Below are positions 6,952-57,858 of a DNA stretch of 64,000 bases, one piece after another. A model generated the notes under the pieces. That model was not told the origin of the DNA, did not search any database, and was given only the letters and a program-made list of their open reading frames with translations. How positions within the stretch are numbered: position 1 is the first letter of the stretch; the number at the start of each line of letters is the position of its first letter. Origin of the DNA: Clavaria fumosa (Eukaryota; Basidiomycota; Agaricomycetes; Agaricales; Clavariaceae); the NCBI GenBank assembly GCA_951802425.1, contig OX637797.1:4030001-4094000 (forward strand), in the 5' to 3' direction. The position numbers and the translations under genes were made by a program.

Positions 6952-7688
6952 TGTCACGGTCCTAACAAGGTTAATGGTGAAGGGGTTAACAGAGCAGAAT
7001 GGAGATGTATTATTGGAGTCCAATCAGAGTCCAATATCGGAGAAACAGAGTAGTAAGTAGAGAAGAAGGAGACTTATGGGACTGCAGCCTCAACATATGT
7101 GTTGTGCCACCACATATATACCTTGTCCCTATTTATCAAACAGAAAACAATGCCAGAAAGAAATCAAACAGAGAAGTCAAACTCCAAGAATATCAGAGTC
7201 AGCCGGAATTGATTGGAGTTGGTCGGAGTTAGTCAGATGATGTGGAGGACATCGAGGACAATGAGGATGAAAGCTCAGAGATGTTTTTAGGATCAAGAGA
7301 TGTTAATATTCAAACTGAGGAGCAGGGAGATACAGGTGGAAGCTTATACTGCAAGGACAGAGTAAAGGAGTAATGTGAAACAATGTACATATCAAATTAC
7401 TAGGAGAGTTTCACCACATGTGCCTGTGCAATTTTTATGGAACAAAGGAACAACAACAAAAAAGCAACTCCCATGGGTCAAGGGTATCCTCTCAATGGTA
7501 AACAGGATGAGGGGATGGAGGGAGAAGGTTCTAGAATGAAGTCTGAACAGTCCGAAGGCTGGCAGAGTAAAGTCCGATGGAGGTGTGGAATGGAGCACAC
7601 AGAGTTACAGTGGAGCAGATTGGAGTTGGTACGGAGCTCGGAGTCCAGGGCGGGGATCATGCTTATGCAAGCGGATGGGGTCGTAACA
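6952..7688 (-). repeat. B1 3' LTR
   Basis: 737 bp, with ends TGTCACGG and GTAACA on the plus strand (TGTTACGACC to GTGACA in element orientation). It aligns with 25809-26525, 47037-47737 and 57859-58584. Read on the minus strand it has TATAAG about 30 bp before GTTTGAATATT, the predicted RNA start that can pair with the primer site. The internal side carries the purine-rich AAGAGGAGGATAC (7689-7701), a suitable plus-strand primer. Confidence 0.85.
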
Positions 7689-7918
7689 GTATCCTCCTCT
7701 TAGGGTCGAACCCCTGAGACCCTGTGGCTCAACTCTGCGTGAACATGTGTTGTCCATAACGAGTTAGCATCGGAGTTTTGTGGCACTTTGATCGGAGTCC
7801 GAAATTTTTTTTGGGGGTTAAAACAACCATGCGCAACGCACTCCGCTTTTCTCTTCCTTAACTCATCACTATCACCACTTGCCCCTAACACGGGCAATCT
7901 TTCTTTTAAAAACTTATC

Positions 7919-8880
7919 ATGTCCAACGCACAATTGACGCCCGGAGCTGGGCCCAGCCGCCCCTCCCGCCCTTGTCCACGACCCGTAGTCGCCGTCCCCA
8001 CGCAACCTCGCATGGAGGACGAGGACCCCGAGATCACAGCCCTCACAAAAAGGATCAATGCGTTGAGGGAGAAAAAGGCAAGGGAGGAAGAGGAGTGGCA
8101 GAGGCAGGAGGAAGAGGAGCAGAAAGCAAGGGAGGTGGCAGATAAGGTGTGGCGGGAGGAGCTGGAGAGGGCAAAGGCGGTGGAGGCAAAGTGGAGGGCA
8201 GCAGAGGTGGCACAGGAGCAAGGGGTAGGGAGGAAGCAATCTCCGACACCGGAGATGGAGGCAGATCATGCGGAGTGTGCGCAATGTCATAGGTTGGGGG
8301 TGGCCTGTGTGTGGCCGAGTGGGGGGCAGGGGACGGCCTGCAATGCCTGTGCAGGGGCGAAGCAGAAGTGCAGAGGTGGAGAGGTGGAGAGGCCGGAGTG
8401 GAAAAAGGCAAAGGGGACGCAGACCAAGCGGTCCACAGAGTCAGAGGAGGATAGGGTGGAGATGTGGGTGCTGCGGGGCCGGCGGGCGGAGGAGGAGGAG
8501 TTAAATTTGATGCGGGCCACGCATAACGTGGTCCTGAGGGGGGTGGTCACGATAGAGAAGTGGAGGATGGAGGCGGCAGCAGAGCGGAAGGCCATGGCAG
8601 AGGATCGGAAGATCCTCTGTGGGATTTTGGAGAAGTGGGGGAGGAGGATGGAGGTGGTGGAGAAGGCGGAGGCAGCAGAGGAGGTGAGGAAGAAGAAGGC
8701 AGAGAAGGTGGAGGTGGAGGACATGGTGGTGGAGGTGATGGGGAAGGAGAAGGGAAAGGCGAAGGAAGAGGTGGAGGTGGAGAAAGAGGCGGAGGAAGAG
8801 GCAGAGGCGGTAGTGGAGTCTGGGCTTAAGAGCCTGAAGGAGTTTTACAAGCATTGCCCGGCTTGCCCCCCTCCACCTAA
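7919..8880 (+). CDS. B1 antisense passenger gene: coiled-coil protein with swapped Zn2Cys6-like cluster
   Basis: Encoded opposite to B1, starting 230 bp inside the 3' LTR and running toward the end of pol. About 320 aa in one exon from ATG 7919. Residues about 32-105 are a highly charged helical region (coiled-coil type). Cys 120, 123, 130, 141, 144 and 151 form CX2CX6CX10CX2CX6C; the first half resembles the second half of a GAL4-type cluster (CxxCxRLGVxC) and the second half resembles the first (CxxCxxxKQKC). A second acidic/basic helical region follows (about 205-300). The frame runs on to 8968 through AT-rich sequence, but the B2 copy suggests that the true stop is TAA 8878-8880 and that a C-run indel shifted the end. 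A regulatory or structural role is inferred only. The identity of the family is unknown to me. Confidence 0.65.
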
Positions 8881-9302
8881 AAAAATAAAAATATATATCT
8901 ATGTTGTATTTATTGTTTTTCTTTTTATTGTTTTCTTTTTTATAATTTTTATTGTTTTTTATCCTTGAACTTGAGTGAAAAGTAAGCAGAGTGAAAGAAA
9001 AATAAGTAAGACAAGATGGAGAAGATGAAGAGAGATTCAGAGTCAGACTTGGGAGAAAATAAAAAGTTCAGAGTTTTCAGAGAAAAGGAATAAGAAGAAA
9101 GGAGGTTTTTCAGAGTTTTTGGAGTTTTTGGAGAAAGGAACAGAGAGAGAGACAGAGAGACAGAGAGATGGAAATACAGATTTATTTTTTTTTAATGATT
9201 CAGAGAAGACGGAGAAAAGAGACGGAGTTGTATAGAATGGAAAATGTACGTAAATAGAAGCATAAGAGAAATTTTGGGGTATTGGAGTGAATGGAGAAAA
9301 GT
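8881..9302. other. convergent 3' region between passenger gene and B1 pol
   Basis: AT-rich, T-rich and GA-rich simple sequence (for example GAGAGACAGAGAGACAGAG near 9145-9175). The equivalent region of B2 (48911-49330) is recognisably the same. It would be the shared 3' UTR of two convergent transcripts. No gene is seen. Confidence 0.5.
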
Positions 9303-12300
9303 CTAGAGGGTATTGAGAGGTCCGGGCTTGTTCGGATAAGCTTGGTGGAAATCTGAAATGGCCTTGGAGGCATGAACAAGTTTGGTAGCGGGGAGCCAGG
9401 ATGTTTCCTCATCAGTTCCTTCATATCTGGACCACCGCACCAGGTATAGGAGTTTGCAGGTGTGGCGTTTGTCAATCTTGGAGTTGAGCACTTCAGAGAT
9501 TTTGTGCTCTAGGTCTCCGTCAATCTCTACCAGAGGAGGCGGGGAGATGGTACAATTTGGAATTGTATTCGGAGTGACTGGCTCCAGCATGGAAATGTGA
9601 AAGATGGGGTGGACAGCTTGCATGGCCTCGGGGAGTCGGAGTACAAAGGAGTATGAACTGGCCTCTCCGATGATTTCGAAGGGTCCAAGGAACTTGTCAG
9701 AGAGTTTTTTGGAGGGTCTGGTTGTACGGAAAAACTTCGCCTTAATGTAGACTTGGTTTCCAACCTTAAACTCCAGTGCCGGAGTCTGACAGTTGTCCGC
9801 TGGGCCCTGATAGCGACTCTGCACTTCAGTGATTTGGGTATGGAGTTCTTGGTGCAGCTGATCCAAGTCTACAGTGAGTTCTCAGGCATGGACCGAAGTT
9901 ACTTCACATTCGGGGAATACCAACATATTCAGGTGGTAGCCCTTGTTCGTGAAGAATGGAGAAACCCCAGTGGTGGCACTCAGGGCATTGTTGTAGGCAA
10001 ACTCGGCCAGGGGAAGGAGCTGTGACCAGTTGTCCTGCTGGTAATTGCAGTAACAACAGAGGTACTGTTCCAATGTCTGGTTAGTCCACTCCATCTGTCT
10101 GTCGCCCTCCAGATGATATCTGGAGGTGAAGTGTAAAGTCATGTCCAGGACTTTACCCAATGAGCAAAAAAAAGGGAAATGAACTTGGAGCCATGATCGG
10201 AGGTGACATGTGACAGAACTCCATGTTTCAAGAAGACGTGGAATATGAATAGACAGGCCAACTCTGCGGAGTTCACTTCGTTGGTCGTCGGGATGAAGAT
10301 CCCCTGCTTTGTAAACCTATCAACAACCACCAATATTGCAGTAAAACCGGAGCTCTCAGGGAGTTGCTTGATGAAATCCATTGAAATGGAATTCCATGGT
10401 TTCTTGGGTATGGGCAGCTGCTTGAGCATTCCATATGGCTTATGCCAAGGGGCTTTCGCCCTACCACAAGTCGTACAAGATTTGCAAAAGTCCGATACAA
10501 ATCCTTGGAGTTTCGGCCAGGTATAATCCCTGAAGACCAAGGCCATAGTCTTGGTCTGACTGAAATGTCCGGCAAGTGGGTGATCATGTCTCACACATAA
10601 AACATGGAGTCAGAGGTCATTGATGTCCAGTACATAAATCCATCCATGCTCGCAGAGAAGTCCGTCGTCATCCATGGACCACTTAGGGTCTGCAGAGTTC
10701 GAGCGGAGGTCTTCTAGGATCAGGACAATCACAGGATCGAGCAAGAGTCCAGACCAGATGTCCTCTCGGAGTTGATGATCATCAATCACAAATGACGTGC
10801 AGAGTGCAGGTATGTAAAGTGACAAAGCTCGGAGAGACAATATCAATTGTTCACTGGAGAACATCGGCCGGAGGTTTTGCAGATTGATGCGGGCATAGTC
10901 GCTATCCCCCTCTTTGGGATAGACATCCCAACATCTAGTCAATGCATTGGGTTTCATTCTGAGGTGCCCAGGGCAGAATCGGATCATGAAATTGAACTGG
11001 GAAAGGAACTCCGACCACCTGGCTTGATGCCGGGTGAGCAGGTGGACCGTGGAGAAGTACTAGAGGTTCTTATGGTCAGTAACAATGTCGACCAGAGTTT
11101 CAGAACCTTCGAGATAGTGCCTCCAAGCAGTAAACACCTCAAATATAACGAGGAGTTCCTTATCGTGGGTGTCATAGTTCAGTTTGGAGATGCCTAGGGT
11201 GTGGGAATGAAAAGCGATAGGATGGACTTCACCGTCGGAGGTGACCATAGAGAGTATCACAGCGACAGCGTAGTCTGAGGCGTCCGTTTCGACTATCAGC
11301 GGAGCTCCAGGAATGAAGTGCGAGAGGATTGGAGCTGTGGAGAATGTGGTTTTCAGATAGTCAAATGCAGACTGGCAATTGCTGGACCAATGCCACTCGA
11401 TGTTTTTATGCGTCAAGCAGTTCATCGGAGTGACGATCTTGGAATAGCCATGGATGAAATGGTGGTAGAAATTGGCAAACCTGAGGAAGGACTGGACATC
11501 CTTGACCTTCCACAGGATCAGCCAATCCTGTATAGTTTTCACTTTAGCTGTGTCCATAGAAAGTCCGGACGGAGATAAAACAAATCCAAGATACTCCATG
11601 GTTTCAGCATGAAATCCACACTTAGCTGGGTTCAAGAAGAGACTGTTCTTCCGGAGCCTTTGGAGTACCTCTTGGACATGCTCAACATGTTGTTTCAGAT
11701 CCTCAGAGTAAATAAGGATGTCGTCAAGATAGACAACCATGAATGTGTCGAGGAGGTCGGAGAATATGTCATTCATAAAGTGCTGGAATGTGGCAGGCGC
11801 GTTTGTGAGCCCAAAGGGCATCACACACCATTCAAAGGATCCATATCAGGTGCAGAATGCGGTCTTCCATCCATCACCTTCAGCAATACAGACCAGGTGA
11901 TATGCATGTCAGAGGTCAAGTTTTGAGTAGATTCGGGCTTTTCCTGGAACATCAAGAAGATCTTTAGTCAGTGGAAGCAGATATCAGTCTTTTTTGGTCA
12001 ATTTATTGAGACCACGGAAATCAATGCATAATCAGAGGGTTCCATTCTTCTTCCAGACAAAGAGCACAGGTGCTCCATGTGGAGAATGGCTTGGATGGAT
12101 AAATCCAATATGGAGGTGCTCATTCAGAAACTTGCAGAGTTCGCTGAGTTCAGACTGTGACAGAGAGTAGACTGCACCTGGTGGAGGGGATTGGCCATCC
12201 AGCAGGTTGATCTTTAGATCATACAGTCGATGTGGAGCAAGGGTGTCTGCCTTCGTTTTACTGAAGACATCTGGAAAGTCCCTGTACTCCTCTGGAACAG

Positions 12301-13117
12301 AGAGGAGATCCTGGGGGGTGGTGTTGGGAATGTTGAACAAAGTGGAGGCTGTGCACACGGACTTGCTCGACAATGTCATGCCAAAGACTTGGGACCCATG
12401 AAGTCCACAAGCTGTGACGAATGTGGCAGCATTCACAAAAGAAACCTTGGGTGTCTCCTGGAGAGACAGAGTAGACAGAAAGGTCAGAGACAGAGTCAAA
12501 GACAGAGACAGAAGCAGAGATGGAGATGGAGTCTGGGTCTGGTTCGGAGTCACTGCAGACGACATTTGAACTGGAGTGCACAGAGTGGAGACAGACAGAG
12601 GGACAGAGGTGGACAGAGGGACAGAGTGGAGAGTGCTGGCTGGTGCACCCTCTGGATCAGATTTCAGAGTTTTTCCTCTTTCATAGATGGTCTGGGCTTT
12701 ATCTGGCCAGTAGTCCAGTCAACCAGCAGGTTGTTTTGGAACAGCCAATTCATTCCCAAGATCACATCACTAGAGCAGTAACTACACACAAGACATTGGT
12801 CAGATTCATGGCGGAGAGCCGAATGGATAACCAGACCGCTTCAGTAACCCATACAGAGGTGGCCCCATTAATAAAAACGACCTCCTGAGGGGTCACCAGA
12901 GTTTTTGGAAGACGGAAACAAGAAGCAAACTTGGCATCAATGAAACAAAGTTCAGCACCAGAGTCTATCATTGCTTTGAACGGAAAAGGAATAGAAGGAG
13001 AGGAGGCAAAAAGGGAAAGAGAACGATGAAAGGAAAGGGTATTGAGTATAGGTTTAGTATGATCAGAGTCAGAGCAGCTGGAGAGTCGTACTGTGCTCTC
13101 TGGGCTGCTCAATCTTT
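9303..13117 (-). pseudogene. B1 pol: protease, RT, RNase H, integrase, chromodomain (broken)
   Basis: In element order: protease (MIDSGAELCFIDAKFA near 12980; active-site DSG intact), linker with FNIPNTTPQDLLSVPEEYRDFPDVFSKTK (about 12270-12330), RT with [16 protein letters not shown] and an intact catalytic [13 protein letters not shown] (about 11710-11760), RNase H with TDASDYAVA and the DKELLVIFE segment, integrase zinc region (HPLAGHF...CKSCTTCG near 10440-10580), integrase core (SMDFIKQLPES, SDHGSKFI, then a Glu in the DRQMEWTNQTLEQY region), and a chromodomain near the end (ISEVLNSKIDK, LLYLVRWSRYEGTDEETSWLP). Stops split it into several open pieces. Its RT box is intact, unlike that of B3. 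Confidence 0.85.
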
Positions 13118-13773
13118 TTTTGGCATGGAGTCATCTCCATTGGAGGTGATTCATGCAGCGCTGGCACTGGCCCACAAGGTCCGCTTATGACAATCATTGG
13201 CTTTGTGGCCTGCTATTCCACAGAAGAGGCACAGATTATTATCAAAACACCATTGGCATTCCTCTGGAGTCAGTTTTCCATCCTGACCCAGATGGGCCTT
13301 CTTTGTATCACTGGAGCTACCGGAGTTAGTGGAGCCCTCAGCGGCCTTTGGAATGGAGTTCCCAGAAGTCGAACCAGAGTTCACTGGACGCTTTTCCAAG
13401 GGTTTCTCAGACTTGGTATTAACGCTGGAAGTGTTCAGGGACTTGGGACTATCTGAAGTCTCTTTTTTGATGGTGTTGTTAGGCATCAGAGCCTTAACAG
13501 AGTCCCAAGAGATCTCCTGCTGCTGAGCCCAATAATGGCCATCGATCACACTGGCTTGCTTGTGGAGTCTGCAGAGTGTGTCCACGCAGTTAATGTGGGC
13601 CAGTTTGTCCTTGATGTGGCTGGCAAGTCCTTTGTAGAACTGCTGCTGCAATGTGTACTCATCCCAATGGACAATGGATGCGAATCTGTTGAACGAAATG
13701 GTGCATTTCATCAACTTCTGGTCCTCGCGCATCCGGAGGTGTTCGAGTTCGAACTCTGCCTTGCAGATTGCAT
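13118..13773 (-). pseudogene. B1 gag, C-terminal part (cut off by A2)
   Basis: Encodes the second half of the family B gag: KLMKCTISFNRFASIVHWDEY, then a Ser/Thr/Pro-rich stretch and the CCHC knuckle NLCLFCGIAGHKANDCHK (CX2CX4HX4C). It ends at the A7 slippery run before pol, as in B2 and B3. The upstream half lies at 25254-25768; the two join exactly at the A2 target site within QTNFGP...AICKAEFELE. Confidence 0.8.
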
Positions 13774-14729
13774 TGTAGTAGGTATTACGTGTATTTGCTG
13801 CAACTGCTTGATTACAGTCAAGTTCTTCAGGGGGGGTCTGACCCAACACCTAAAACAGTGAGTGCAACCTTGGAGGATGTGGAGGATGAGTTAAATGAGT
13901 TGATAGGACGAGAGTACACGATGTCCAAAGTGTCTGATAGACTCTGATATCAGTCCAATATTGGATCTGATGTTGAGCAAGAGAGTAGTCGAAGATATGA
14001 AGGGCTGGCAATGATGAAGGCCAGCGGAACGATGTGTACAACGGAGGATGAGCCTAACAGAGGTCACACAAGATGTGGGCAATGAGAATAAGCTGCTTTT
14101 TGTAGAGTCCAATATGTTCTTAAGTACATTTTTGTAATTACAAATGCTCCGGATTGTACCAGATGATCTGGAGGTCATGGGGAATGAGGGAAGGTCATAG
14201 GTAAGATCATGTGGAGTTCATAGGTCATAGAAGAAACGGCATAGTATGTAGAAATGAAGAGTCCGAATTAATTGGTCATTGGGAATGCTGGTAGGAAAGA
14301 AGAGAAGGCATAATCGAGTATAGTACATACACAGATCAGCGTAGATAAAACACTTTTGAGTGTAGAAATGTTTACAAATTCAGAGGAACACATGATATGA
14401 AATTTACAGCATTTAAGGATAAAACAGGGGAGAGTACATGAAACATCGGTCACAAGGAGCACTAAGCAGAGTAAAGTAATGAAATTGGAGTATATGGGCG
14501 CCATGGATCACCTGTGTAATGTGGCAGCAGCGAGGAATTTGATTTAACGAGGGTCTGATATCGGATAGTTATCGGATGAGTATTGGGCTTTACAGACAGT
14601 CATCGGAGGGCATTGGATGGTGTCAGATGGTGGTCGGTTCGCGTCAGATACAAGGCGGGTGTGTGCTGAGTTCTTCGGATGGTAGGTATCCATCATGTTT
14701 CTGTGCTGGAGCTGTATGTTATCCTTACA
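13774..14729 (-). repeat. A2 3' LTR
   Basis: 956 bp, same length as its partner at 24298-25253. In the roughly 370 bp at the low-coordinate end that I compared by eye, the differences are almost all C/T or G/A at CpG sites (for example ACGTG/ACATG, GATGAAGG/GACGAAGG, ACAACG/ACGACG), with no indel. The element-side flank reads CAGGAGAA before the LTR on the minus strand, a short purine tract. Confidence 0.9.
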
Positions 14730-15443
14730 TTCTCCTGGGGGCTGAAAATGCGACTGTCCTCACACTGCAAGACCAGAACCTGGTGAAAATCACCATATGA
14801 AACACCCTGAGAAGTGGTGAATAGCAATGGTTTCCTAGGTGAAAATCACCAGGACTTGTTGATAATCACATCTTTATTGGGTACATGAAATGGGTGATTT
14901 TCACCACTTATATGACCGAATTCACCCACTGTTCTCTGGGTGAATAATACTACAATTCAAGTGTATTTTAAACTCATCTATAATAGGTGAATTTCACTCT
15001 ATCACAAGTGCCTTTTAAACTGATCTAATAGGTGAATTTCATGTTGGTTTTTATGTCATCTTAGCCATAATCTTAGTTGTTTTTCACTCTCTTTCTCTGC
15101 AAGAAATTGCACAAAATTAATTTGTTGATGATATCTTGAAACTGTATTGGTTGATAATCAGGTACATCAAATGGGTTATTTTTCAGCACATATATGACCA
15201 AATTCACCTGCTTCTCTCCAGGTAAATGTCACTGCTATCAAGCACATTTTAACCTGATATTTGAGGTGGCTTCTACATACTTTTAGTGATTTTAACTATG
15301 TCTCCAGGTATTTTTTTAGCCTCTAAATTATGCACTCAATGGGAGTTGAACTCAAGTGCTCATGGAATTGGACTTAACCCATAACTGCTATGTTACCCAT
15401 TACACTACAGTCCCCATCTAGACAATAAGATTTTGTGGCTTAA
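14730..15443. other. A2 AT-rich segment next to 3' LTR
   Basis: Not coding. It contains repeated GGTGAAAATCACC-type palindromic phrases (14782, 14857) and GGGTGATTTTCACC (14889), plus the tRNA-like sequence listed separately. It could be a later insertion into A2; no clean ends or target duplication were found. Confidence 0.4.
15332..15415 (-). repeat. tRNA-like sequence with A and B boxes (SINE head or tRNA relic)
   Basis: On the minus strand it starts GGGGACTGTAGTGTAATGGG, like the acceptor and D arm of a tRNA, with an A-box match (TAGTGTAATGG). About 60 nt later comes GAGTTCAACTCCC, a B-box match. The 3' acceptor strand does not pair with GGGGACT, so it is not an intact tRNA. A tRNA-derived SINE head is the likely reading. 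Confidence 0.45.
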
Positions 15444-16135
15444 TGTCACTCACATTGAGAGATGTATCACTCAATATCCTCCAGTTTAATATCACTTAGA
15501 TTGAGGGGTGTATTGTATCACTCAAAGTCCTCCAGTTTAATCACTCAAATTAAAAGGTGTATTATATCACTGAGTATCCTTCAGTTTAATATCACTCAAA
15601 TTCATGGGGTGTATTGTATCACTCAATATCCTCCAGCTTAATATCACTCAAATTGAAGGTGTTTTGTATCACTCAATATCCTTCAGTTTAATATCACCCA
15701 AATCAAGGGGTGTATTGTATCACTCAATATCCTCCAACTTAATATCACTCAAATTAAGGGGGCCTATTGTATCACTCAATATTCTCCAGTTTAATATCAC
15801 TCAGATTGATGGATGTGTTGTACCACTCAATATCCTCCAGCTTAATGTCACCCAAATCAAGGAGGTGTATTGTATCACTCATTGTCCTTTACTTCAATAT
15901 CACTCAATATCCTCCAGCTTAATATCACTCAAATTGAAGGTGTTTTGTATCACTCAATATCCTTCAGTTTAATATCACCCAAATCAAGGGGTGTATTGTA
16001 TCACTCAATATCCTCCAGCTTAATATCACTCAAATTAAGGGGGCTATTGTATCACTCAATATTCCCCAGTTTAATATCACTCAAATTGATGGGTGTGTTG
16101 TATCACTCAATATCCTCCAGCTCAATATCCCTTAA
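15444..16135. repeat. about 50-bp minisatellite inside A2
   Basis: About 13 imperfect units of roughly 50 bp around TATCACTCAATATCCTCCAG, TTTAATATCACTCAAATT and a G-rich spacer. A larger block (about 15620-15840) recurs almost unchanged at 15905-16130, so a multi-unit segment was duplicated as a whole. Open frames through it are by-products of the repeat. Confidence 0.85.
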
Positions 16136-16342
16136 TTCCAAATCACCCATCACCTGTTTTTTGGGTGAAAGTCTTAAATCATCTGTCCAGATGGTGATAT
16201 TAACCTGCTATTGGGTCCATAGTGTGATCAGTTGCAACCAAATGAGGCCAAACATCGCTTGTTGATTGTGTGGCATGTTGCATGAGTTGCCTAAGTCCAA
16301 ACACACTTGTTTTCTAACCACCACAATGACCAAACCATCAAC

Positions 16343-17958
16343 ATGAATGACTTCGACACTACAATTTTGCAAAACGCAGTGCAGGCGATGGTGGAGGCAT
16401 GAACTATGGTGCCAGGAGATTCACTGCCAGAACAGGGGCAGGATGCGGAGTACGTGGAGTGGGTGGAGATGTATGGGGGTGATGCAGTGTGTAACCGGGT
16501 TTCTTATTTATCATGTTTTACTGACACAGTTTTTCAGGATGATTTCCTCACCAGTTACGTGGCCACAATTGAGGAGGATGTGGATATCGACGAGGGGTTA
16601 GTCCCCATTGCGCATAGGTTAAAAAAATGGCACAAGTTATGTGGCGAGGAGTGGGCCGCAGAGCAGGCCAAACGTCATGAGGAGGCCAAGGCTGCAAGAC
16701 GCATGGAGGAGGAGAGGGTTGCCATGGAGAGGGCGACAGCAGAAGCGGAGGTGGCGGAGAGGCGGACCGAGGAGGCTAGGGCGGCAGAGAAGAGGGCGCG
16801 AGTTGCCCATGTGCGCCGGATCATCGACAGCGAAGATGAGGAGGGTGATGAGGTGACAGTGGTGGGGGTAGCAGCAGCAGCAACAACAGCAGCAGCAGCG
16901 ATGACAGCAGCAGAGCCGGTGGAAGAGGAACCGATGGGTGCGGATGAATTGTCCATGCCAGACATCGTCGAGATCAAGGTGGACGGGATGGTCAAGAATG
17001 CGAAATCGGCCGTGGATGCGGAGGAAGCATCGGGGAATGGTCATCGGACCGTTTGGGGGACCAACAGGGTAACTCCCATTGGTACAATTGAGGCGGGGTC
17101 CGTGAATGCGGCGGCTGGGGGGCGCGGTGTGGTCGTTGAAGTGCCCGTGCTGGAGGCTCGGGTCAGGGGGCAGATGATGGCGACACCGGTGTGGGTGAAG
17201 ATCGCGAGGTGGAAGGACGCAGAACGGGGGTGAGGCAGGAGGACCGGAGTGGGAGCAGCGGTGAGGTCTCGGGCTGTGCATCAGCCCGATGATAAGGTAA
17301 GTTGTTAATTTATCTGATCAATTCTTAGCTGATTTATCCATAGGAGCATGAGCCAGGATGTGACGCTTGCATTTGGAAGGGACGTGAGTGTTACGGGTTG
17401 GAGGGGGTGGCCTGCTGGTGGTGCAGGGTGTATAAGGTTTCGTGCAGCATATCGGCTGCTCAAGGTAAGTGGAAAATTCCTTGTTTCTGTGAACAAGAGA
17501 AAAACTGAAGGTTGGAATTTTTTTAGGTGTGAAACCAGAGAAAGGAGTGGGGTCCGGAGACAAGGGTGAGTCGGATGAACTGTCGGTCATGTATCGGCTA
17601 ATGGCGCGTAGCAGGTGCGGGGGTGGCGGAGGCACCGGGCAGTAAGCGGCCGCGATGGGTGGTGGTGCACGTGCCAGTGCACAACCAAACAACTACAGAT
17701 GAGGAAGGGGAGGACAAACTCGAGGCTGAGGAGAGCGTGGAGGTGGTAGAAGAGCCACTGGCGAAGCGGAGGAGGTCGGAGATGGGGCTGGGGCCAAGTC
17801 AGAAGGGGAAGGAGAGGGAACTGGCATCAGGGTCCAAGGGCAGGGAGGCTCTTGGACGGGCATTAACAATGATGGAGCAAGGCTCCGACCAAGTGAAGGT
17901 GGGAGCAGAGCTGGTGAGGGTGGGTGTGGAGCTGCTCTGGGTGCTGCTCCTCGAGTAG
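16343..17958 (+). pseudogene. A2 antisense passenger gene: four exons, coiled coil and Zn2Cys6-like cluster, two TGA stops
   Basis: Encoded opposite to A2. Proposed exons are 16343-17296, 17344-17464, 17527-17565 and 17615-17958, separated by GT-AG introns of 47, 62 and 49 nt with donors GTAAGT, GTAAGT and GTGAGT; the third holds a CTAATG branch-point match. Phases agree and give 485 codons plus stop. Two in-frame TGA (16400-16402 and 17231-17233) fit CGA decay. Exon 1 has a long charged helix (about residues 105-155), an acidic SEDEEGDE and an Ala/Thr run. Exon 2 carries Cys 324, 327, 334, 342, 345 and 352 (CX2CX6CX7CX2CX6C). Exon 4 has a basic KRPR segment and AKRRR. The layout matches the B1 passenger protein although the sequences differ. 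Function unknown. Confidence 0.7.
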
Positions 17959-18174
17959 CTGTCCACTCCTGTAAATATATATATATATATTGTATATGTT
18001 TGAATATGTGTCAGAAATGTGGCGGACAGTGAACGAAAAGTAAGGGAACTCAAGAATTGGAGATTGAAAACGCTGTGTGGAAGATTTGGACTTGTCCGAT
18101 TTTTTTTTTTTTTTGGGCGAAGTTAGAATCGGCGAATGAAGGATGGATAATAAGTTAGAATAGGTAAAAGGCAT

Positions 18175-21100
18175 TCAATTGTTTGTCTGTAGCTTTCGGA
18201 CTATTCCAGGATGTTGCAAAGGTGTGTCGGATGTATCAGATTCGTTGGCAGTGTGGTTGGAATTGTCAGATTGTGCATCAAAGTGAACGGAGTGTTCTGA
18301 GTGTGTGATGAATTTGTCATTAACTTGTTCAGCATTGGGGTCATTATTGGATACTTCGTGGTGAAGTTCGGGTGGGGTGTCGTCTGTATGCTCATCCATA
18401 GGTTCGATAATTACAGTGACCGGAATTGATGTATGTGTTCAAGGATAGTAGGGAATAATTCAAAAAGCGGCATATCTGATTTTTGAAACCGATCCATCCA
18501 GTTCTGATAAAATATATGTGCCATGCGAAGATCGGCAGACAACGATCATCGGTCTGAAAAATCAAGGCTTGGTCTTCTGGTTCAGTTCCATTTTGACAGC
18601 TGAATTTCGAATAAGAACAAGTGATCTGGGTTTGAAGTCAAAGTCGAAGATGGCATTCTGGTGGGCATCAATAAATTGCTTAACGGATTGCTTTTGGGCA
18701 TGGAGAACCTTGTCAGAGATCAGTGCGAGGTCTTCCTCTCGTTTCTGCAGTTGATGGGTGCGAAGTGCGATAAGTTCCGGCGTTGTCATCGGGGCATTGG
18801 CAGTGGGAATCATGTATGTAGTCTCAGCTATATCAAATGGGAGAAGAGGCTCAACTCCATGAGCAATGTAGAAGGGGGAGAAACTGGTGGAACATTGGAT
18901 GGTGACTCGTTCGGCCCATATTATGGATGGAAGAACATCGGGCCATTTCGATTTGTCACCATTTGCCGATTTGATGAGTGATTCATGGACGGAGCAGTGA
19001 GTGCATTCGATGACACCATTGGCACGAGAGTTGTATCCGGATATGCGAATGTTGTGTATTCCATACTGTTCTTGCAGTAGGTCGAGGGCTTTGACAAACA
19101 GTGCCCTGTTGTCAGTGATAATTTCTTCAATGGCTCCCCATCGGCAGAGGATATCTTCGAATATGAATGATCTGATGAGTCGGGCAGTTTTGTTTCGGAG
19201 CGGTCTGGCTTCTGGGTAAGCAGAAAGTGAGCATTGGGTGTGAACGAGGAGTCGGAATCTGCAGGCTCTGGGTAAAAACATGGTGTCAATATGGACACAT
19301 CGAAAAAGCGCAGCGGGGGTGGCAACTGTCGGAGGGATGAATATTTTGCAAATTTGTTGCATTTGGCACTGGTGGCATGTTCGTACAAACCACTTCACAT
19401 CCTGGTCTAGCATCGGCCACCAGAATCAGGTCAGAAGGCATGAGCAAATAACATAAACTCCCTTATGTCCCAGTGAATCATGCACTTCCGTTATAAGAGC
19501 GAGTCGTTTGTCATCCGGAGGAACGATTTGATGATGTCCATTGGGTTGGTGGCGCCAGAGTTTGTTGTTGAGTATAAAGAAATCGGATGCAGATCGGACC
19601 AAGCGTTGGAATTCTGTAGTGTCCATGTCCGATGATTGAATAGGGTTGCGGAGGAATGCTTCGGTGTTGTGGAGGCGCTGCTGGTGTTTGATGGCCGCAT
19701 CGGATTGGGGAATAGTCATGATGGTGGGCTTGTTAGAAGGGGATTCATTCAATTCCATCGAATTGAGTAGCATCGATCCTGTGTAAATGTTGAAGCAGGG
19801 GTAGGCGACTTGGGGTTGATTGGTGTCGGATAAATGGTGCGATTCCAATTTGCAGTTGATGAGCTCCGTGATGAATATGTAGCTCCAATCAATCCAATCT
19901 TCATGGTCATTGGCTTCTGTATCAATTTCATTATCTGCGGCTTGTCAGTGGGACAATCTGTCAGCTCCAGTGTGCTTATCTGTGGGGATGTGAGTCAAAT
20001 CGAAGTTGAAAAGTAGGATGCCGGCAATCCATCTGTTCATCGCAGCATTTGGTTGAATGTTGGGATTGTTGAGCATTCCTTTGATAAATTTTGCGTCCAT
20101 TTTGACGTTGAATTTTGGGAGTCTGATGAGGTAAATGCAGTATGATCGGAGTGCTCGAAACAGTCCATATAATTCGATTTTAGCTTGCAAATATCGGGTT
20201 TCACGTTCATTCCAGGTGATCGATCTGAATCTTGAGGGGTATCGAATCCCATCTTTGCTGATTTGGAATAATGTGAAGCTGACAGCGATGTTGGAGGAAT
20301 CGACAGCCATAATCACAGGATGTCCGGAACAATAGTTGATAGGTCGGATTGTGGAACAGTTGAGAATGGCATGTTTCAGTCAGTCCATCGAGTTTTGTTC
20401 TTCTTCTCCAAAGTTAAATGGCACATCTTTTCAAGTTAGGTTGACAAGTGGACAGGCAAGTAGAGTGTAATTCTTGATGAAGTGCCCAAGGAGTCCGCAA
20501 ACACCTAGAAATGATTGGATGTCGGTCAATGATTCACATGACGGCCAGTGATGGATCCGTTGGACATTTGATGAATTGGGTATATGGCCTTCGTAGGTAC
20601 AGGTGTGTCCAGTGACGATCGCTTCCAGTGTGCAGATCATTGTCTTCTTTCTGTTAAACGTTCCTCCGACTTTCTTGACTTGTTGAAGTACCTGGTTGAT
20701 GTTGTTTATGTGTTCCCACACAAATTGGCGAATCTGTGGATTTTCTGGGATCGTTTCGTAGGTGCCATCGGGTAGTTCATATCGGGTCTCAGGGCCCTTG
20801 ATGGCTACATCATCGACGAAGGGGATGGTGACATGTGGAATTTCATCCTGTAAAATATGAGTGACGTCCCCATGCATTATCTGAGTCACGTTAGTGTATC
20901 CCATCAGCACACAAGTCAACTGCTTTGCTCTGAAGGGGGTTTGAAATGTAGTAAGGTCTTGGCTTCGTTCGTTGAGGGAGCGTTGATCAAAGGAAACAAA
21001 AAGGTCGAGGGATCCATAACAACCACGTCTAGCGAATGATTCTGCAAAAACTTCCATGATTGGAGGGACGGCAGAGTCTCTGATCGTGACTTTGTTGAGA

Positions 21101-21939
21101 GGCTGAAGGTTGTGGACAAGCCAGAGCGACTTTCCGTCTTTCTTCAGAATGCAAAACCATTGAGATTGGTATGAGGAGTTTGATTCTTCATAGACTCCAG
21201 CGGCAATCTTTTCTCGGATAACTTTTAAAACATCGTTGTAGATGCCAGGTGGGATCGGAATATTTTTGAAGACCCAAGGGATGTGTTTGACCATCAGGAT
21301 TATTATCGGATCGAAATATTTCGCATCGAAACGTCCTTTTTCAGTCTCTTTCCAGGCAAAAGCATCCTCTTGGATCTTAATAAGATGGTGTACGAGTTTT
21401 TCTTCCTCTGGCCACAAGAATCCTGTTCGGTTGGCGCTATGTTCGTCCTTTCGATCCTGTGTGTACCTGGGGCCGGGAACAAACTCAGGCAGATGCTTTG
21501 GCAGGATAGGAATGTCGGCGAGGGGGTCCGGGTGTCAGCATCGGACGATCCGAAATTCTTCGGGAATGGTTGCTTTAATCGGGTTGATGCAGTTGGCAAC
21601 TTTCTTGTATTTCTTCCCAACATATACAGGTATAATTGCTTCTGTTGGTGATATTTCGATGGACTGGATGTTGGAATATAAGGTAGGCTGAGGTGGTACT
21701 GGTGTCTCTGATGCTTTGTTAATGATTTTCGGAGGTCTGGATGGCTCGAGAGAGATATCCCAAGAATTGGTGAATGGCAAGGGGTCAAGAGTCATTGATG
21801 GTACAGATTGAGATGCGTGAAACGAATGAGTAGGAGATAATTGGATGGCTGGAGTATCGGATGTGGGTATAGCTTTGATTTTGGTGACCATTGGGTAGTT
21901 GTCCGAAGATTTGGTCAGGTCCAATACTCCAGCTATCAA
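18175..21939 (-). pseudogene. A2 pol: RT, RNase H, integrase (broken)
   Basis: Starts in the -1 frame at the gag stop. Linker 21535-21939. RT 20431-21417 with LVHNLQPLNKVTI, RDSAVPP, SLDLFVSFDQR and the catalytic FVDDVAIKG. RNase H about 19945-20316 (MAVDSSNIAVSF, YLQAKIELYGLFRALR). Integrase zinc region 19426-19848. Core 18562-19413 with VHIDTMFLP, ITDNRALF and NGVIECTH giving the D, D and E positions, then a C-terminal LVLIRNSAV module and an acidic tail to 18175. No chromodomain was recognised. Several in-frame stops and substitutions such as ITDNR (ITDNG is usual in my recollection of this family) indicate a dead copy. Confidence 0.8.
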
Positions 21940-24161: not shown

Positions 24162-24275
24162 GTCCGATGTTGGTAGCTGAATCCGGGCTCTCAGGCATTC
24201 GGAATGTCGAGGGTTGGATGCTGATGATCCTCTTGGGATCCTTGAAGGTGGTTGTGAAGACTTTTTTGTGGCCCC

Positions 24276-24293
24276 CCCTCACGGTGGGCTCCA
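24276..24293 (-). other. A2 primer-binding site, tRNA type
   Basis: Minus strand TGGAGCCCACCGTGAGGG, 4 nt after the 5' LTR. It matches A1 except for CG to TG. The TGG start indicates priming by a tRNA CCA end, unlike families B, F and G. Confidence 0.6.
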
Positions 24294-41595: not shown

Positions 41596-41692
41596 CAACT
41601 TTTCACTTCATTCACACTTTGCTCACATTTGCGCTTTAGGATTCAAATATCATATACAAAAATAATATTCAAATAAAAGAAAAAACCATCTA

Positions 41693-42301
41693 CTAGTCGC
41701 AGGCTACTTCCTTCCCCTTCCATGACCCTCCCACGACTTTTTCCACCACCCTCTCTACCTCCGTACTTATCTCTTTATCCTCCTCCTCCAGATCCTCCAA
41801 CAACGCACCAAATTGATCTACCTATGGGAATTCCAACAACTCCACCCGCAACCGATTCTGTTCTTGCGTCGCCCACTTCCCCACCCATGACATCATCACC
41901 CCTTGCGCGAGTTTCTCCAGAAGACCTTCATACCCGAAATAGGCCACTTCCAGGCCACGATGACCTCACATGCACAACAAGTTGCGTTCTCCTACCACAG
42001 CACCCAGATGGCCATGCAACTCTAAGAAGAAAACAATCAATCACTTTATTATTGAATACTTGAACCATTTACCCCGCTCTCTCTTCATCCTATTCTCGAA
42101 TGCCTCCTTCATCTCCACTAACTTGCGTCGTGACTCCCCCAACTCGTGTCGCACCTCCCGAAGGTTGGTTTCTTGTACTTAGAATGAAAAAACAAAAACA
42201 ATTCATACATGCACGGAGTTAAAATGATATTTACCTTGCCAATCTCCTTGAAGAGCTTCGAAATCCTTCTCCACCACCTCCGCCTGCTCCTTCAGTTCCA
42301 T
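41693..42301 (-). pseudogene. family F antisense passenger gene, 5'-truncated, three exons left
   Basis: Encoded opposite to F1, between its chromodomain and the LTR. Proposed exons on the minus strand: 42301-42235, 42177-42073 and 42021-41693, with GT-AG introns of 57 nt (42234-42178) and 51 nt (42072-42022), both phase 1. Exons 1-2 are charged helix (MELKEQAEVVEKDFEALQ, LVEMKEAFENRMKRER). Exon 3 stays in frame to TAG at 41693 but contains one TGA and one TAG. No Cys cluster remains. The LTR starts only 13 bp upstream of the first codon, so the 5' end has probably been lost. I rely on splice phase and position for this call. Confidence 0.5.
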
Positions 42302-42314
42302 CACCTTGATATCA

Positions 42315-45565: not shown

Positions 45566-47036
45566 AAGTGTTAGGGTGTCATATGCTTACCTTACTATGT
45601 TTAGCCTTCCTCCTTGTCTGGGGCCCTGCAGATATGCATCTCATTAGCCTGACAAGCCTACTGCTTTATCTACATATGCCTATGTACCAATAGCCATCAA
45701 AACCACTGATTTTGATTTGGTGTCTAAAGTAAAAGAGTACAGGAAATCTACACTCAGGGGAAGATGAGGCTCCACAGCAAGAACTAAGAATCGCACGGAG
45801 ATGCAATTAATACCATTCGATTTTCACTCATCGATAACCCTTATTCCCAGAGTCACAAGAGGAAACAATGGTTTTCATTTCTTAAACAAAGTAACATCAC
45901 TCTAGGAGCCTCAGCTGAGTAGATATTGAAATAGCACCAAAGGCAATGGGAAGTGGGAAAGTCTGAGTAGGCAGGAATGTTGGAAAGGTCTGTAGGGTTA
46001 TACCTGCGAGTTTACAAGAGGAGCGGAGCGTTTGCGGCAGAGCTACAAGGTTGCAAAACTCGCAAATGCGAGTCTGACACCACTCTGACATCATGGGGTA
46101 GCCCTGATTGTGATCGGACCTCGATCGAGCGATTGAGGACTGACAAGCCAGCTCAATTCTCACTAAGGCAGAGGTAGCGATTGGCGCTGATGGCCGATGC
46201 TACTGTGTTGTCAAACTAGGAATGCTTGCTCTCACAGGCAGACTACGCACCCACAACCTTTGCATGCAGTCCCTCAGCCCTCCCCTCATCTCCCTTTGTA
46301 TTAGAGTGTTACTAGTGTATATGTTGAAACACATGCTAAATAAGGCTAGTGCGCTTAATTATGACTAAATCTGGGAGAGATAAGAGGAAGCAGAAGAGGT
46401 ATAGATGAGAGAATGACATGATCAAGACTGGGAAAGTTGCAGAACGTCGCAGAAGTGATCGGAGGGGATCGTGGGGGCCTTCCCCACAATCCCCGGCATT
46501 TGAACCCTTAGAGACGAGTCAGTATGACTCACTATGATTATTTTTGGAACAGCTAGAATGTTCGAGACAATATATCTCAATGAGGAGATAAGATAAAATT
46601 ATGATCTTACCTGATATGTAAAGCCACTGAATTCTTCCTAATTTAAAGTCCTTAAATGGGATGTTAGAATTACTAGTTAAGGAGCTATGCTGAATCGTTC
46701 CAAATATAGTAGACACACGATTTGCAGTATAAATAGCTGATGGAACTTAACGTTCCAGGCATCATTATGTACCCATACAACTGTCGCACCATCCTCTAAG
46801 AGGACTAAGCCTGAGTCTAGCACCCCACAGAGCTAAGAACATATTTAGCTAAACTAAGGACAGGGTCTAGTTAAGCTAAATGTAGTATCTGCTGACTAAG
46901 GACTTGGTTTGGTCAAGTGATCTGGGTACCCAAAGGTATCCAGGCTTCGGATGAGCCGCCCTGTGCCGGCTCCCCTCGGCGCGGTAAGTATTGATCGAGT
47001 TATGAATATTTGGGTATAAGGTACAAAGTGTTCTAC
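45566..47036. other. no gene recognised (45566-47036)
   Basis: No coding frame with recognisable motifs, no tRNA fold and no LTR pair. 46660-46900 has LTR-like character (TGTTAGAATTACTAG start, CAGTATAAATAG TATA motif at about 46725) and could be a solo LTR of another superfamily, but I cannot find its other end or a duplication. Confidence 0.35.
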
Positions 47037-47737
47037 TGTCACAGTCCTAACAAGGTTAGCAGCAAAGGGATTAACATAATGGAGTGGAGATGTATTATCA
47101 GAGGAATGGATAAATAAACAAGAGGAAGAAGACTTATGGGACTGCGGCCTCAATGTATGTGTTGTGCCACCATGTATATATGTGTCCCTATTTATCAAAC
47201 AAGAACAATACCCAAGAGAGGATCAGAATGTAAGTCAAAACTCCAAAGTTGATCAGAGTCCGTCGGAGTTGGTTGGAGTTGGTCGGCTGATGTGGAGAAC
47301 ATCGAGGACGATGAGGATGAAAGCTCAGAGATGTTTTTAGGATCAAGAGATGTTAATATTCGAACTGAGGAGCAGGGAGATACAGGTGGAAACTTATACT
47401 GCAAGGACAGAGTATAGGAGTAATGTGAAACAATGTACATATCAAATTACTAGGAGAGTTTCACCACATGTGCCTGTGCAATTTTCATGGAACAAAGAAA
47501 CAACAACAAAAAGCAACTCCCATGGGTCAAGGGTATCCTCTCAATGGTAAAGAGAATGAGGGGATGGAGGGAGAAGGTTCTAGAACGAAGTCCAAATGGT
47601 CTGAAGGCCAGCAGAGTGAAGTCCGATGAAGGTGCAGAGCGGAGCATACGGAGTTACAGTGGAGCGGATCGGAGTTGTTACAGAGCTCGGAGTCTGGGGC
47701 AGGGATCGTGCTTATGCAAGCAGATGGGGTCGTAACA
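47037..47737 (-). repeat. B2 3' LTR
   Basis: 701 bp, TGTCACAGTCC to GTCGTAACA (plus strand). The internal side reads GTATCCCCCGCTTAGGG, giving the purine tract AAGCGGGGGATAC on the minus strand. Confidence 0.85.
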
Positions 47738-47971
47738 GTATCCCCCGCTTAGGGTCAAACCCCTGAGACCCTGTGGCCAAAGTCCATGTGAACACATGGC
47801 TCCCATAACAAGTTAGCATCGGAGTTTCACAGCGTGTCGAGCAGAGTCCAAAATTTTTTTGAGGGTCAAAAGGCTGCACACGTCATACACCACTTTTTCT
47901 CTTCTTTAACCTGCTACCATCATCACTAGCCCCTAGCATGGGCAATCCCTTCTATTTTCTTTAAAACCTCG

Positions 47972-48910
47972 ATGTCCCACAACCCGAGCACACCCGGAGC
48001 AGGGCCTAGCCAGCCTCCCCAGCCTCGACCACACCATGCAGTCACGCGTGGAGGACAAGGACCCTGAGATTGCAGTCCTCATGCGCCAGATCAAGGCGCT
48101 GAAGGACAAGAAGGTGCAGGAGGAGGAGGAGTGGAGGAAGAGGGAGGCCACAGACAAGATGCGGCAGGAGGAGATGGAGAGGGCGAGGGTGGTGGAGGTG
48201 AAGCGGAGGGCGGAGGAAATTGCGAAGGCGCAGGGGATGGGGAGGAAGCAGACGCTGGCCACGGAGTTGGACATGGAGCATGCGGACTGCATGCGATGTG
48301 TCCGGCTCGGGATAGGGTGTGTGTGGCCAAGCGGAGGGCGGGGCACCGCATGTATCACATGTGCGGGGGCAGAGAGGCAGAGCAGCCGGAGCAGAAGAAA
48401 TTCCGCTCCGCATGGTCGAAGAAGACTGTGGTGGAGTTGGAGGAGGAGGTGCTGCAGGTGGAGGTGGACAGGGCGGAGGTGGAGCGGACTGGGGTGGTGA
48501 AAACCATCTATGAGTTGGTGGTCCACAGGATGTTCGAGTTGGAGGAGTGGCAGAGGGAGGTGAAGGCAGAGTGGAAGGAGTTGAGGGCAGAGCGAAAGGT
48601 GGCGGCAGAGGATCGAAAGATCCTCCGGGAATTTCTGATGGGGAAGCGGGGAGCGGGGGAGGAGAAGGAGGAGGAGAAGATGGTGGTGGAGGTGGTGGGC
48701 TCGGAAAAGGGGGTGGAGACAGAGGCGGAGAAGAAGGCGGCGGAGGCAGCGGGAGCAGAGAAGGAGACAGAGGAAGTGGGAGCAGAGAAGGAGATGGAGA
48801 AGGGTGCAGAGGCAGAGAAAAAGGCAGAGGCAGAGGAGGGAGAAGTGGGAGTGGAGTCCAGGCTGGAGAAGCCTGAGGGAATTTTGCAGGCATCGCCCCC
48901 CTCCACCTAA
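47972..48910 (+). pseudogene. B2 antisense passenger gene, decayed
   Basis: Same position and orientation as in B1 (ATG 47972, 234 bp from the LTR; start MSHNPSTPGAGPSQP). A frame shift near 48030 separates this start from the body (from 48036, VEDKDPEIAVLMRQIKAL). The cluster CMRCVRLGIGCVWPSGGRGTACIT keeps five Cys, but the sixth is Ser (AGC), and another shift near 48380 follows. The C-terminal Glu/Lys-rich region runs to TAA at 48908-48910. Retention of most of the protein shows that the gene was part of the family before these copies diverged. Confidence 0.65.
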
Positions 48911-56470: not shown

Positions 56471-56655
56471 CTCTGCCTGTACTCCCTAGAGTCACTACAC
56501 CTGCTATTGAACCTTTCTCACACCTCAGCACATCATCGGTGATCATGTTGCTCCATCCAAATTCTGTCTTAACACACCATCAATGAAATTCTTGGACCCA
56601 TGAACATTTTGCATGGTCCTCTGCACATTGACAACACTTCCTGGAAGTGCCATGC

Positions 56656-57036
56656 TCACAGTTCCAGTTCTTTGCAACACAGTTGTTGCAATTCTAGGAA
56701 GCATTCAATATGAGAAAAGGAATGGATGAGTAAAAAATTGCCATGCACTTCTTGCTCCATTTCATTGCATTCCCTGTTCTCCTTCACACCCCCTATCTTT
56801 TTCCAGGCCTTCGAGAACTCCTGGGGCAAAGGATTACCACTCATGGAACAGCCTATTGCTTTGCCTGACCCTGTGACCTCACCTTGTAACCATGCACATC
56901 ACACTCATTCTGTGGCCTGTGCAGCCAAGGCCTGGGCCAGAACAGCCTTGTTGTTGGCTGATTTGGTCATATTGAAAATGTGTGTTTTGCACTTGAGCTT
57001 GGTTTCATGGTGTACAGGGGTGTTTGCTGTTGCCAT
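56656..57036 (-). pseudogene. possible family F antisense gene remnant
   Basis: Minus strand from ATG 57036, 128 bp from the LTR that starts at 57165: MATANTPVHHETKLKCKTH..., interrupted by TGA, then MSGNPLPQEFSKAWKKIGG to a stop at 56656. Its position and orientation relative to a plus-strand 3' LTR equal those of the A and B passenger genes, but I see no Cys cluster and no clear similarity to 41693-42301. Weak evidence. Confidence 0.3.
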
Positions 57037-57152
57037 GATGGTTGGACTTAGGAGAATCTCATGTCACAATCAACAAAGGTGCAACTAACCAGGATGACAA
57101 ATCAAACATGTGACCATCATCCTCACATGTGATCACCACTCTCATAGGGCTC

Positions 57153-57858
57153 AAGGGGGGGTAATGTCATGACCCTCTTCATTTTTCCTGAGCCTATCCT
57201 ATCTAACACCATCTACTGGCCTCCCAACACCCTCTTGTGACCCTACACATCCACCCTTGAACCCTATAAACCCTCCTGAACCATCTACAAGCTCTCATGA
57301 CCCTCTATCACCACTTATACATTACTAGGATCCCATCATGCCTCATGCATCACCTTGGCATATGGTCCTATCACCTCCTCAAACACTAGTCCACCCTACC
57401 AATGCACCAGACCCCCACACTTGTCAAATTACACTCAGCATGCCCATACTTCTGATGCATGTGACTTGCCAACTAACAACACCTGCATCACTCATGTGAC
57501 CTTCCTCATGATGCTGTGACCTTAACACTCAGATGCACCACCACAAGTCAGCTGTGTACTCCCTTTCAAATATGCATATCCTTTCCCTTTGTAGTGTGTA
57601 GTTACCCTATCTATGATCCAAACATCCCCCCATAGTTATAACTATGCATATGATTATTTACTAGGTCACAACCCATGACTGGTCAGCTTCACAACCTTAC
57701 CTATGCTTCTTTGACCCCTTGCAACCTTAGTAGAACACACAGATAGTTACTTTATGACTAAACATCCCACACACTACTATAGTGTTGTCACTAGGCAACC
57801 TTTGTACTTTCCCAAAGTTATTTATACTTACAACATACATATATAAAGTCTCACATGT
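57153..57858 (+). repeat. family F 3' LTR fragment with polypurine tract
   Basis: AAGGGGGGGTAA (57153-57164) is followed by TGTCATGACCC (57165), the F LTR start. It runs parallel to 42315-43150 and is cut at 57858 by the insertion of B3. Confidence 0.75.

Follow-up and report, generated by a model that had tools for sequence, protein, structure and literature searches.

LTR retrotransposons have long been known to carry antisense extra genes that lack an established function. The window, the whole stretch of 64,000 nucleotides analysed here, raises the question of whether its Ty3/Gypsy-type elements carry a true gene antisense to pol, between the end of pol and the 3′ LTR, and what the product of such a gene may do. 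An earlier note on this DNA had placed antisense genes (hereafter passengers) in copies of three element families (A, B, and F).

Antisense genes in the window

Comparison of the LTR pairs indicates that element A2 is nested inside element B1 (Table 1). In both elements pol is encoded on the minus strand, with the extra gene on the plus strand in the interval from pol to the 3′ LTR; for these two elements, the LTR pairs, strands, and frames bear out the arrangement described in the earlier note. Of the other two cases, the B2 gene matches the B passenger but is broken, with the last Cys of its cluster out of frame, whereas the F candidate (41693-42301) was rejected, as the region 41.3-44.3 kb has no match to A or B and its minus-strand open frames do not exceed 112 codons. 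Of 852 candidates, 40 were scored, and among these the interval 41300-42314 is spanned by matches only in three segmental copies that are nearly identical; no conserved frame was found, leaving two families with a passenger instead of three. The passenger copies within the window are decayed, and uninterrupted A and B copies were found elsewhere by searches of the 48.8-Mb genome, which is fungal by inference.

Table 1. Positions in the window of the LTRs, pol parts, and antisense genes of elements B1, A2, and B2.
Feature	Position	Strand	Remarks
B1 3′ LTR	6952-7689		Element on minus strand; 90.1% match to LTR 25809-26526
B1 antisense passenger	7919-8968	+	ATG 7919, open frame to 8968
B1 six-Cys cluster	8276-8371	+	C-x2-C-x6-C-x10-C-x2-C-x6-C
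B1 pol C-terminal part	9303-9881	-	Tf2-1-like SH3 and chromodomain (Pfam; BLAST in other loci)
A2 3′ LTR	13772-14729		95.3% match to partner LTR 24296-25253
A2 first coding exon	16343-16486	+	In-frame stop just before end of first open stretch
A2 intron 0	16487-16537	+	51 nt, GTGTGT...TCAG
A2 second exon	16538-17296	+	Charged helix-rich region; in-frame stop near end in A2 copy
A2 intron 1	17297-17343	+	47 nt
A2 third exon	17344-17464	+	Six-Cys cluster at 17359-17445, C-x2-C-x6-C-x7-C-x2-C-x6-C
A2 intron 2	17465-17526	+	62 nt
A2 fourth exon	17527-17565	+	
A2 intron 3	17566-17614	+	49 nt
A2 fifth exon and stop	17615-17958	+	
A2 integrase part of pol	18562-19425	-	Antisense to passenger (Pfam)
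B2 LTR	47034-47738		Adjoins B2 passenger
B2 passenger, broken copy	47972-48910	+	Pieces match in different frames

The A2 passenger keeps the limits given to it earlier (ATG at 16343, stop at 17958), but it consists of five exons instead of a single frame, and exon 1 is interrupted by in-frame stops in this copy. Introns 0 to 3 were detected in 28, 31, 28, and 27 of 32 A loci, respectively; as these loci include near-identical sets (L039-L042, L044-L045, and L083-L084), they do not represent 32 independent cases. Intron 0 is 55 nt long with a change of frame in L083 and L084. The splice sites are conserved, while the length differences between copies are not divisible by three, a combination that is expected only of a gene spliced from the antisense RNA of the element. 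The B passenger has no intron, and its putative antisense transcription is supported only by its coding frame. In B1, the C-terminus of the passenger is in a different frame from that of other B copies. The start codon is about 145 bases from the 3′ LTR in A and about 230 bases in B.

Zinc-cluster-like products and their putative role

The family spacing rule of Zn(2)-Cys(6) clusters is C-x2-C-x6-C-x5..12-C-x2-C-x6..8-C, and the six-Cys clusters of A and B both fit it. The pattern is present in 28 of 30 A loci without a frame filter and in all 33 filtered B copies, although the copy filter itself demanded the pattern, and thus the B count and the A counts arise partly by construction. Naming the proteins by Pfam was rejected, since two B proteins scored 14.4 and 16.5 against the cut-off of 21 bits for Zn_clus (PF00172) and neither a third B protein nor A gave a match; the genome has 16 Zn_clus matches, none of them at a passenger. 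An AlphaFold model of the B protein (mean pLDDT 66.9, pTM 0.23) predicts long helices at residues 37-102 and 186-289 and short helices after each CxxC (121-126 and 142-146), with pLDDT below 60 in the cluster.

As the earlier note had noticed, A and B are distinct elements (their pol pieces are about 21-26% identical) that share the cluster. Treating their passengers as one gene family was nevertheless rejected, as the hhalign profile alignment is confined to 38 columns at the cluster (probability 2%, P 0.024), with no significant profile-profile match beyond it, and given this alignment and the low pol identity, descent of the two genes from one ancestor is not demonstrable. Eleven database relatives were found for the B protein. 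The spliced A protein had no relative among 7992 candidates scored, probably because low-complexity words filled the candidate list; its N-terminal 110 residues as query gave one match (P0012) among 108 candidates.

We favour, with a probability of roughly 0.6, the explanation that two distant Ty3/Gypsy-type lineages carry a true antisense accessory gene with a promoter on the LTR side and a product that serves as a nuclear regulator of the element. The passenger promoter would lie within the 3′ LTR or next to it, with one LTR of the pair driving gag-pol and the opposite one driving the accessory gene. The A introns would survive reverse transcription because the genomic RNA is the opposite strand, in which they stay unspliced. 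The product, with its long charged helices and Zn(2)-Cys(6)-spaced cluster, would most likely enter the nucleus and act on DNA or chromatin, regulating either LTR transcription or the way in which the new copy is handled and placed. Regulation of the element is the most likely role of the passenger, which may act in the manner of HBZ in HTLV-1 or in that proposed for maize Grande gene 23.

The protein could instead take part in assembly, RNA binding, or transport, or shield the element from host silencing. Its long charged helices and small Cys cluster would also be in keeping with a protein that binds Gag or RNA, and one option given for the plant antisense genes is import of the pre-integration complex into the nucleus (PMC7264820). 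In its Cys spacing, however, the cluster resembles the DNA-binding zinc clusters of fungi, and we regard a role other than regulation of transcription as rather unlikely.

Selection on the frames and presence across the families

The dN/dS comparison suggested in the earlier note gave omega values well below 1 (about 0.285 for the A passenger and about 0.235 for the B passenger), as estimated from chosen intact copies with biased composition and CpG decay. A model with omega = 1 fits worse by 168.6 (A) and 221.6 (B) lnL units, and pN/pS is lowest in the true frame of the six in every distance class. The A set comprised 14 of 30 loci with a spliced protein of at least 360 aa, in which intron 0 was retained and read through in frame (17 codons); the set used for the Cys count was smaller by one near-duplicate. 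For B, 5 of 44 copies without a single uninterrupted frame were dropped, followed by copies at least 98% alike, leaving 33. The B passenger also shows a trait of antisense ORFs, conservation about as good as that of other element proteins, with a summed dN/dS of 0.38 versus 0.27 for the pol C-terminus of the same copies (20 loci; 182 of 190 pairs, after exclusion of pairs with dS below 0.02). Judging from these substitution patterns, both passenger frames are under purifying selection.

Such frame-specific selection, together with splice sites that are kept despite diverged introns, is what a protein-coding gene would display, and it makes it improbable that the antisense RNA itself is the working product, for example as a self-limiting or silencing RNA. 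Double-stranded RNA can arise from the antisense transcripts of retroelements (PMC7264820), and the antisense RNA and the protein may act together.

The antisense passenger is a family trait in A and B. Among the matches listed, 117 of the 135 A passengers left after merging and 77 of the 111 in B have an antisense pol downstream, none has a same-strand pol there, and the sense arrangement, with a same-strand pol upstream, occurs once in A and twice in B. An LTR lies upstream of the passenger in 24 of 30 A loci and 29 of 30 B loci. Counted from the pols listed, 117 of 135 in A and 77 of 110 in B have a passenger, while 18 and 33, respectively, have no passenger match, some of these absences being false. 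The pairing used 142 of 149 A and 113 of 127 B passenger rows, after second pieces and weak rows were dropped, and 135 of 137 A and 110 of 150 B pol rows, the dropped B rows being mostly 56-62% identical; the passenger of B2 itself is absent among the B matches listed. The earlier note had considered that intact copies might lack the gene, but it accompanies 38 of the 41 A pols whose open frame reaches 1240 aa or more. Some B pols without a passenger do sit in long open frames, and the gene may thus be dispensable in some lineages.

That the passengers are a host gene taken up a single time and carried without use is very improbable given the selection, the presence of passengers in most copies of several subfamilies that are only about 50% identical in protein, and the position of every genomic Zn_clus match away from the passengers. 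In favour of this reading, 18 of 135 A and 34 of 111 B passenger matches listed have no adjacent pol match, and a host gene may have been the source of the passengers. Chance open frames, for which the purine-rich passenger strand, a composition that alone gives long frames in several frames, and the few database relatives (11 for B and 1 for A) could be cited, are refuted as far as sequence can do so, since in the four stretches tested (B1, a second B copy, exon 1 of A2, and exon 1 of one other A copy) the longest stop-free frame exceeded all 300 dinucleotide shuffles made of each, in addition to the selection and splice-site conservation.

Comparison with known antisense genes

Two distant lineages in one compact genome offer many copies, clear selection, and, in A, a spliced gene. 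The A introns are a direct mark of antisense expression, which makes the antisense mRNA, its promoter, the location of the protein, and its effect on the LTR testable, and the antisense placement is a way for an intron-bearing gene to be maintained in an element with an RNA stage in its replication.

The plant Gypsy antisense additional ORFs (aORF-3R), described for maize Grande (gene 23), rice RIRE2, Silene and other Retand elements (TRP28), and PvRetro13, resemble A and B in being extra antisense genes of the pol-3′ LTR interval in most family copies (PMC7264820, PMC11963269). Both A and B occupy this slot, antisense to pol before the 3′ LTR, and occur in most copies. The proteins differ, as those of plants have TRP28 or SMC domains instead of a six-Cys cluster. 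A nuclear or DNA-binding role has been proposed for the plant proteins too (PMC7264820, PMC11963269), and Grande gene 23 is described as nuclear with its own promoter (PMC7264820). In the main text of one of these papers, the word “intron” is absent and “splic” occurs twice (PMC11963269). The four conserved antisense introns are a feature of A.

HBZ of HTLV-1 is likewise an antisense gene at the 3′ end, and its spliced transcript is described as beginning in the 3′ LTR. HBZ is a nuclear, helix-rich regulator of the DNA-binding type. It belongs to a human retrovirus and has a bZIP instead of a Cys cluster, and it serves here as a working analogy with no sequence relation claimed. We tentatively suggest, as a possible rather than a probable generalization, that distant fungal Gypsy lineages have independently used the interval from pol to the 3′ LTR as a niche for LTR-driven antisense zinc-cluster regulators of their own transcription, in which HBZ-like control would have evolved in parallel and the antisense orientation would let the A introns pass the RNA cycle unchanged.

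The brtn gene of Boty-like elements was reportedly described by Zhao et al. in 2011. The Boty-like elements of Botrytis carry brtn in antisense orientation as an extra gene, and their pol has a chromodomain (PMC8365987, PMC4227169). They resemble A and B as fungal LTR retrotransposons with an antisense gene, and B also in the chromodomain, a comparison made from the description of brtn only. Antisense extra genes of LTR retrotransposons are a known class, with members in plants, Botrytis (brtn), and HTLV-1 (HBZ), and what is new here is an intron-bearing antisense gene and a zinc-cluster-like protein in two distant lineages.

Elements of the window and their relationships

Comparison of the window with itself found A2, a copy of the LTR retrotransposon family A, nested inside B1, a copy of family B, and identified further B-type copies B2 and B3. 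The earlier note had placed an antisense extra gene (passenger) in A2, B1 and B2; all three do occupy the slot between pol and the 3' LTR, but all are decayed, with in-frame stops in exon 1 of A2, a frame change near the C-terminus in B1, and the B2 gene broken into pieces. Uninterrupted copies are present elsewhere in the genome. In B3, the self-comparison shows the pol end (63674) running straight into the middle of an LTR, so its passenger has been deleted. The copy A1, at the left window edge, appears to belong to the A group carrying the passenger, with its own passenger just outside the window (C4:4025742-4026431; C numbers denote contigs of this genome).

Element features of the window; LTRs and B3 are from the self-comparison
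Feature	Position	Strand	Remark
B1 LTRs	6952-7689 and 25809-26526		90.1% alike
B1 pol		minus	
B1 passenger	ATG 7919	plus	between pol and 3' LTR
A2 LTRs	13772-14729 and 24296-25253		95.3% alike
A2 pol		minus	
A2 passenger	ATG 16343 to stop 17958	plus	between pol and 3' LTR
B2 LTR	47034-47738		
B2 passenger	from 47972	plus	
B3	57859 to window end (64000)		third B-type element

The A2-in-B1 nest (6952-26526) was found three more times (C2, C3 and C7). The passengers of these copies are 99-100% identical, suggesting that the nest was duplicated as a segment and not inserted anew each time; an element of family F is co-duplicated with it. Within A2, about 1.46 kb of extra DNA (14765-16228) lies between the LTR-adjoining tract and the passenger start and is not present at the same place in the other A spacers inspected. 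It begins with CACTG, ends with AGTG(TGA), has a possible 3-base duplication and contains a tandem array (about 15415-16146); as a guess, it is perhaps a CACTA-type non-autonomous transposon.

Profile models matched reverse transcriptase (RT), RNase H and integrase zinc-binding pieces in the B1 pol, and a chromodomain barely above the cut-off. The A2 pol is decayed, with an RT match under the cut-off (19.5 vs 29.6 bits) and an integrase zinc-binding match; because RT precedes integrase, A2 is probably of the Gypsy type. The A2 and B pol pieces share only ~21% (RT-RNase H) and ~26% (integrase) identity. Judged by sequence, the F pol is a relative of B, with 82% identity to B1 over 152 residues, 58% to B3 over 366 residues, and 33-41% near the C-terminus. 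A further element group (C1:126952, C4:4468018, C5:75589 and others) shares ~62% identity with B1 over the pol C-terminus, and several members have 1241-aa open frames.

Presence, orientation and selection across families

Within its own genome, the B1 passenger protein has at least 127 matches; for A2 exon 1 there are at least 149. Many of these extend over most of the query, with identity of just 45-55%. After match pieces were merged and pol was sought within 4 kb, an antisense pol lay downstream of 117/135 A and 77/111 B passengers among the matches listed, a same-strand pol downstream of none (0/135 and 0/111), and a same-strand pol upstream, the sense arrangement, at one A and two B passengers. 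Counted from pol, 117/135 A and 77/110 B pols in the same listed and trimmed sets of matches have a passenger. At 60 loci with flanks, an LTR lay upstream in 29/30 B and 24/30 A, and an antisense pol downstream in 29/30 B and 25/30 A; of the six A loci lacking an LTR match, four are nested segmental copies with the LTR displaced by an insertion. Other intact copies also carry the gene: a passenger lies beside 38 of the 41 A pols among the matches listed with frames of at least 1240 aa, which were counted as open although a few contain a stop within the match.

The only clear departure from the antisense rule is the B passenger at C8:2729904-2730587, which shares the strand of its adjoining pol and has no antisense pol; it may reflect a rearrangement. 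Roughly twelve B passenger matches that are nearly identical to one another (C1:196069, C4:147093, C5:145201, C7:52045, C10:3286015 and others) show 45-46% identity to B1. Most of them have an A passenger within ~10 kb, as would be seen if one block recurred on many contigs.

A single uninterrupted frame with the six-Cys cluster and the C-terminal motif was read in 39/44 fetched B copies. Subject to CpG decay, biased composition, shared ancestry and the choice of intact copies only, and with intron 0 still included in the A proteins, median NG86 dN/dS was 0.37-0.46 for the B passenger (five distance classes) and 0.27-0.40 for A, and codon-model omega was about 0.235 (33 copies) and 0.285 (14 copies), respectively. 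With omega set to 1 and the tree unchanged, the fit was far worse even at the best of three kappa values (lnL in B, -7411.6 to -7633.2; in A, -7091.5 to -7260.1), and the purifying selection for which dN/dS had been proposed as a check is borne out. The true frame had the lowest of the six pN/pS values in every distance class (B, 0.44-0.53; A, 0.40-0.44), with reverse frame -1 as runner-up (0.55-0.69 and 0.48-0.52). For the 20 B loci that retain a full pol C-terminus (182 pairs), summed dN/dS was 0.38 for the passenger vs 0.27 for pol, a somewhat weaker constraint on the passenger. Constraint in B is strongest in the cluster (pN/pS 0.33 vs 0.53-0.54 elsewhere), and in A pN/pS rises from the C-terminal part (0.32) through the cluster (0.39) to the N-terminal part (0.45). 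We consider the passenger a genuine antisense gene, borne by the element and kept under selection in each of two distant lineages (probability about 0.95), and its product is very likely a protein rather than an RNA.

Passenger proteins and introns of the A gene

The B protein (~335 aa) opens with a stretch rich in proline and arginine. Two long helices, the first charged (37-102) and the second at 186-289, flank the cluster C-x2-C-x6-C-x10-C-x2-C-x6-C, and the protein finishes in an acidic tail whose end is conserved. The A protein (~470-485 aa in copies whose frame reads from a start codon through the last exon) begins with a conserved stretch, followed by a charged region rich in alanine and glutamate and then by the cluster C-x2-C-x6-C-x7-C-x2-C-x6-C; its C-terminal part is conserved too. 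Both spacings match that of the fungal binuclear zinc cluster, and in the B structure model each CxxC is followed by a short helix, but with pLDDT <60 there. The Pfam model Zn_clus (PF00172) fell under the cut-off in two B proteins and had no match in a third B protein or in A, and none of its 16 matches in the genome is at a passenger. In a profile comparison of A with B, the cluster alone aligned (38 columns, P 0.024, probability 2%). The layout described in the earlier note, a charged region and a six-Cys cluster in both proteins, therefore holds as a likeness of arrangement, with homology not demonstrated. Database relatives number 11 unnamed proteins for B and one for A.

The B passenger needs no intron. 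A copies have an open frame up to a GT[AG]AGT donor, a short Cys-cluster exon and two further exons, and introns located by pattern over 32 A loci comprise intron 0, which interrupts the first open stretch (28/32; 51 or 55 nt), intron 1 (31/32; 47, 51, 54 or 55 nt), intron 2 (28/32; 54, 55, 61, 62 nt) and intron 3 (27/32; 48, 49 nt). Lengths vary by non-multiples of three with the exons still in frame, and donor and acceptor are conserved while the interior has diverged, which argues strongly for splicing. Two loci, L083 and L084, settle the case of intron 0: there it measures 55 nt and the frame shifts across it, and the pols beside these loci are open over 1275 and 1287 aa. Since donors and acceptors are read on the strand opposite to pol, the genomic RNA should keep the introns, which would explain their persistence through many rounds of transposition. 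We infer either that the A gene did not enter the element by copying of its spliced mRNA, or that the introns were gained later.

Relation to known antisense genes

An antisense promoter probably lies at or beside the 3' LTR, and on balance the passenger may well be a nuclear regulator of the element. A review of plant elements covers extra ORFs that lie in antisense orientation in the slot after pol and before the 3' LTR, with Boty of Botrytis as a non-plant case; their function is given as unknown, a role like that of retroviral accessory proteins being proposed (PMC7264820). Retand has antisense ORFs in all clusters, 97% with a TRP28 domain that is probably DNA-binding, according to PMC11963269, and brtn, the additional antisense gene of Boty-like elements, is mentioned in PMC8365987 and PMC4227169. 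A further known antisense gene is HBZ of HTLV-1. Among the titles and abstract openings listed from open-licence papers, none showed an antisense zinc-cluster or intron-bearing gene like this in a fungal LTR element. Antisense extra genes are a known class; what is new is a zinc-cluster-like form with introns, from two distant lineages of fungal elements.
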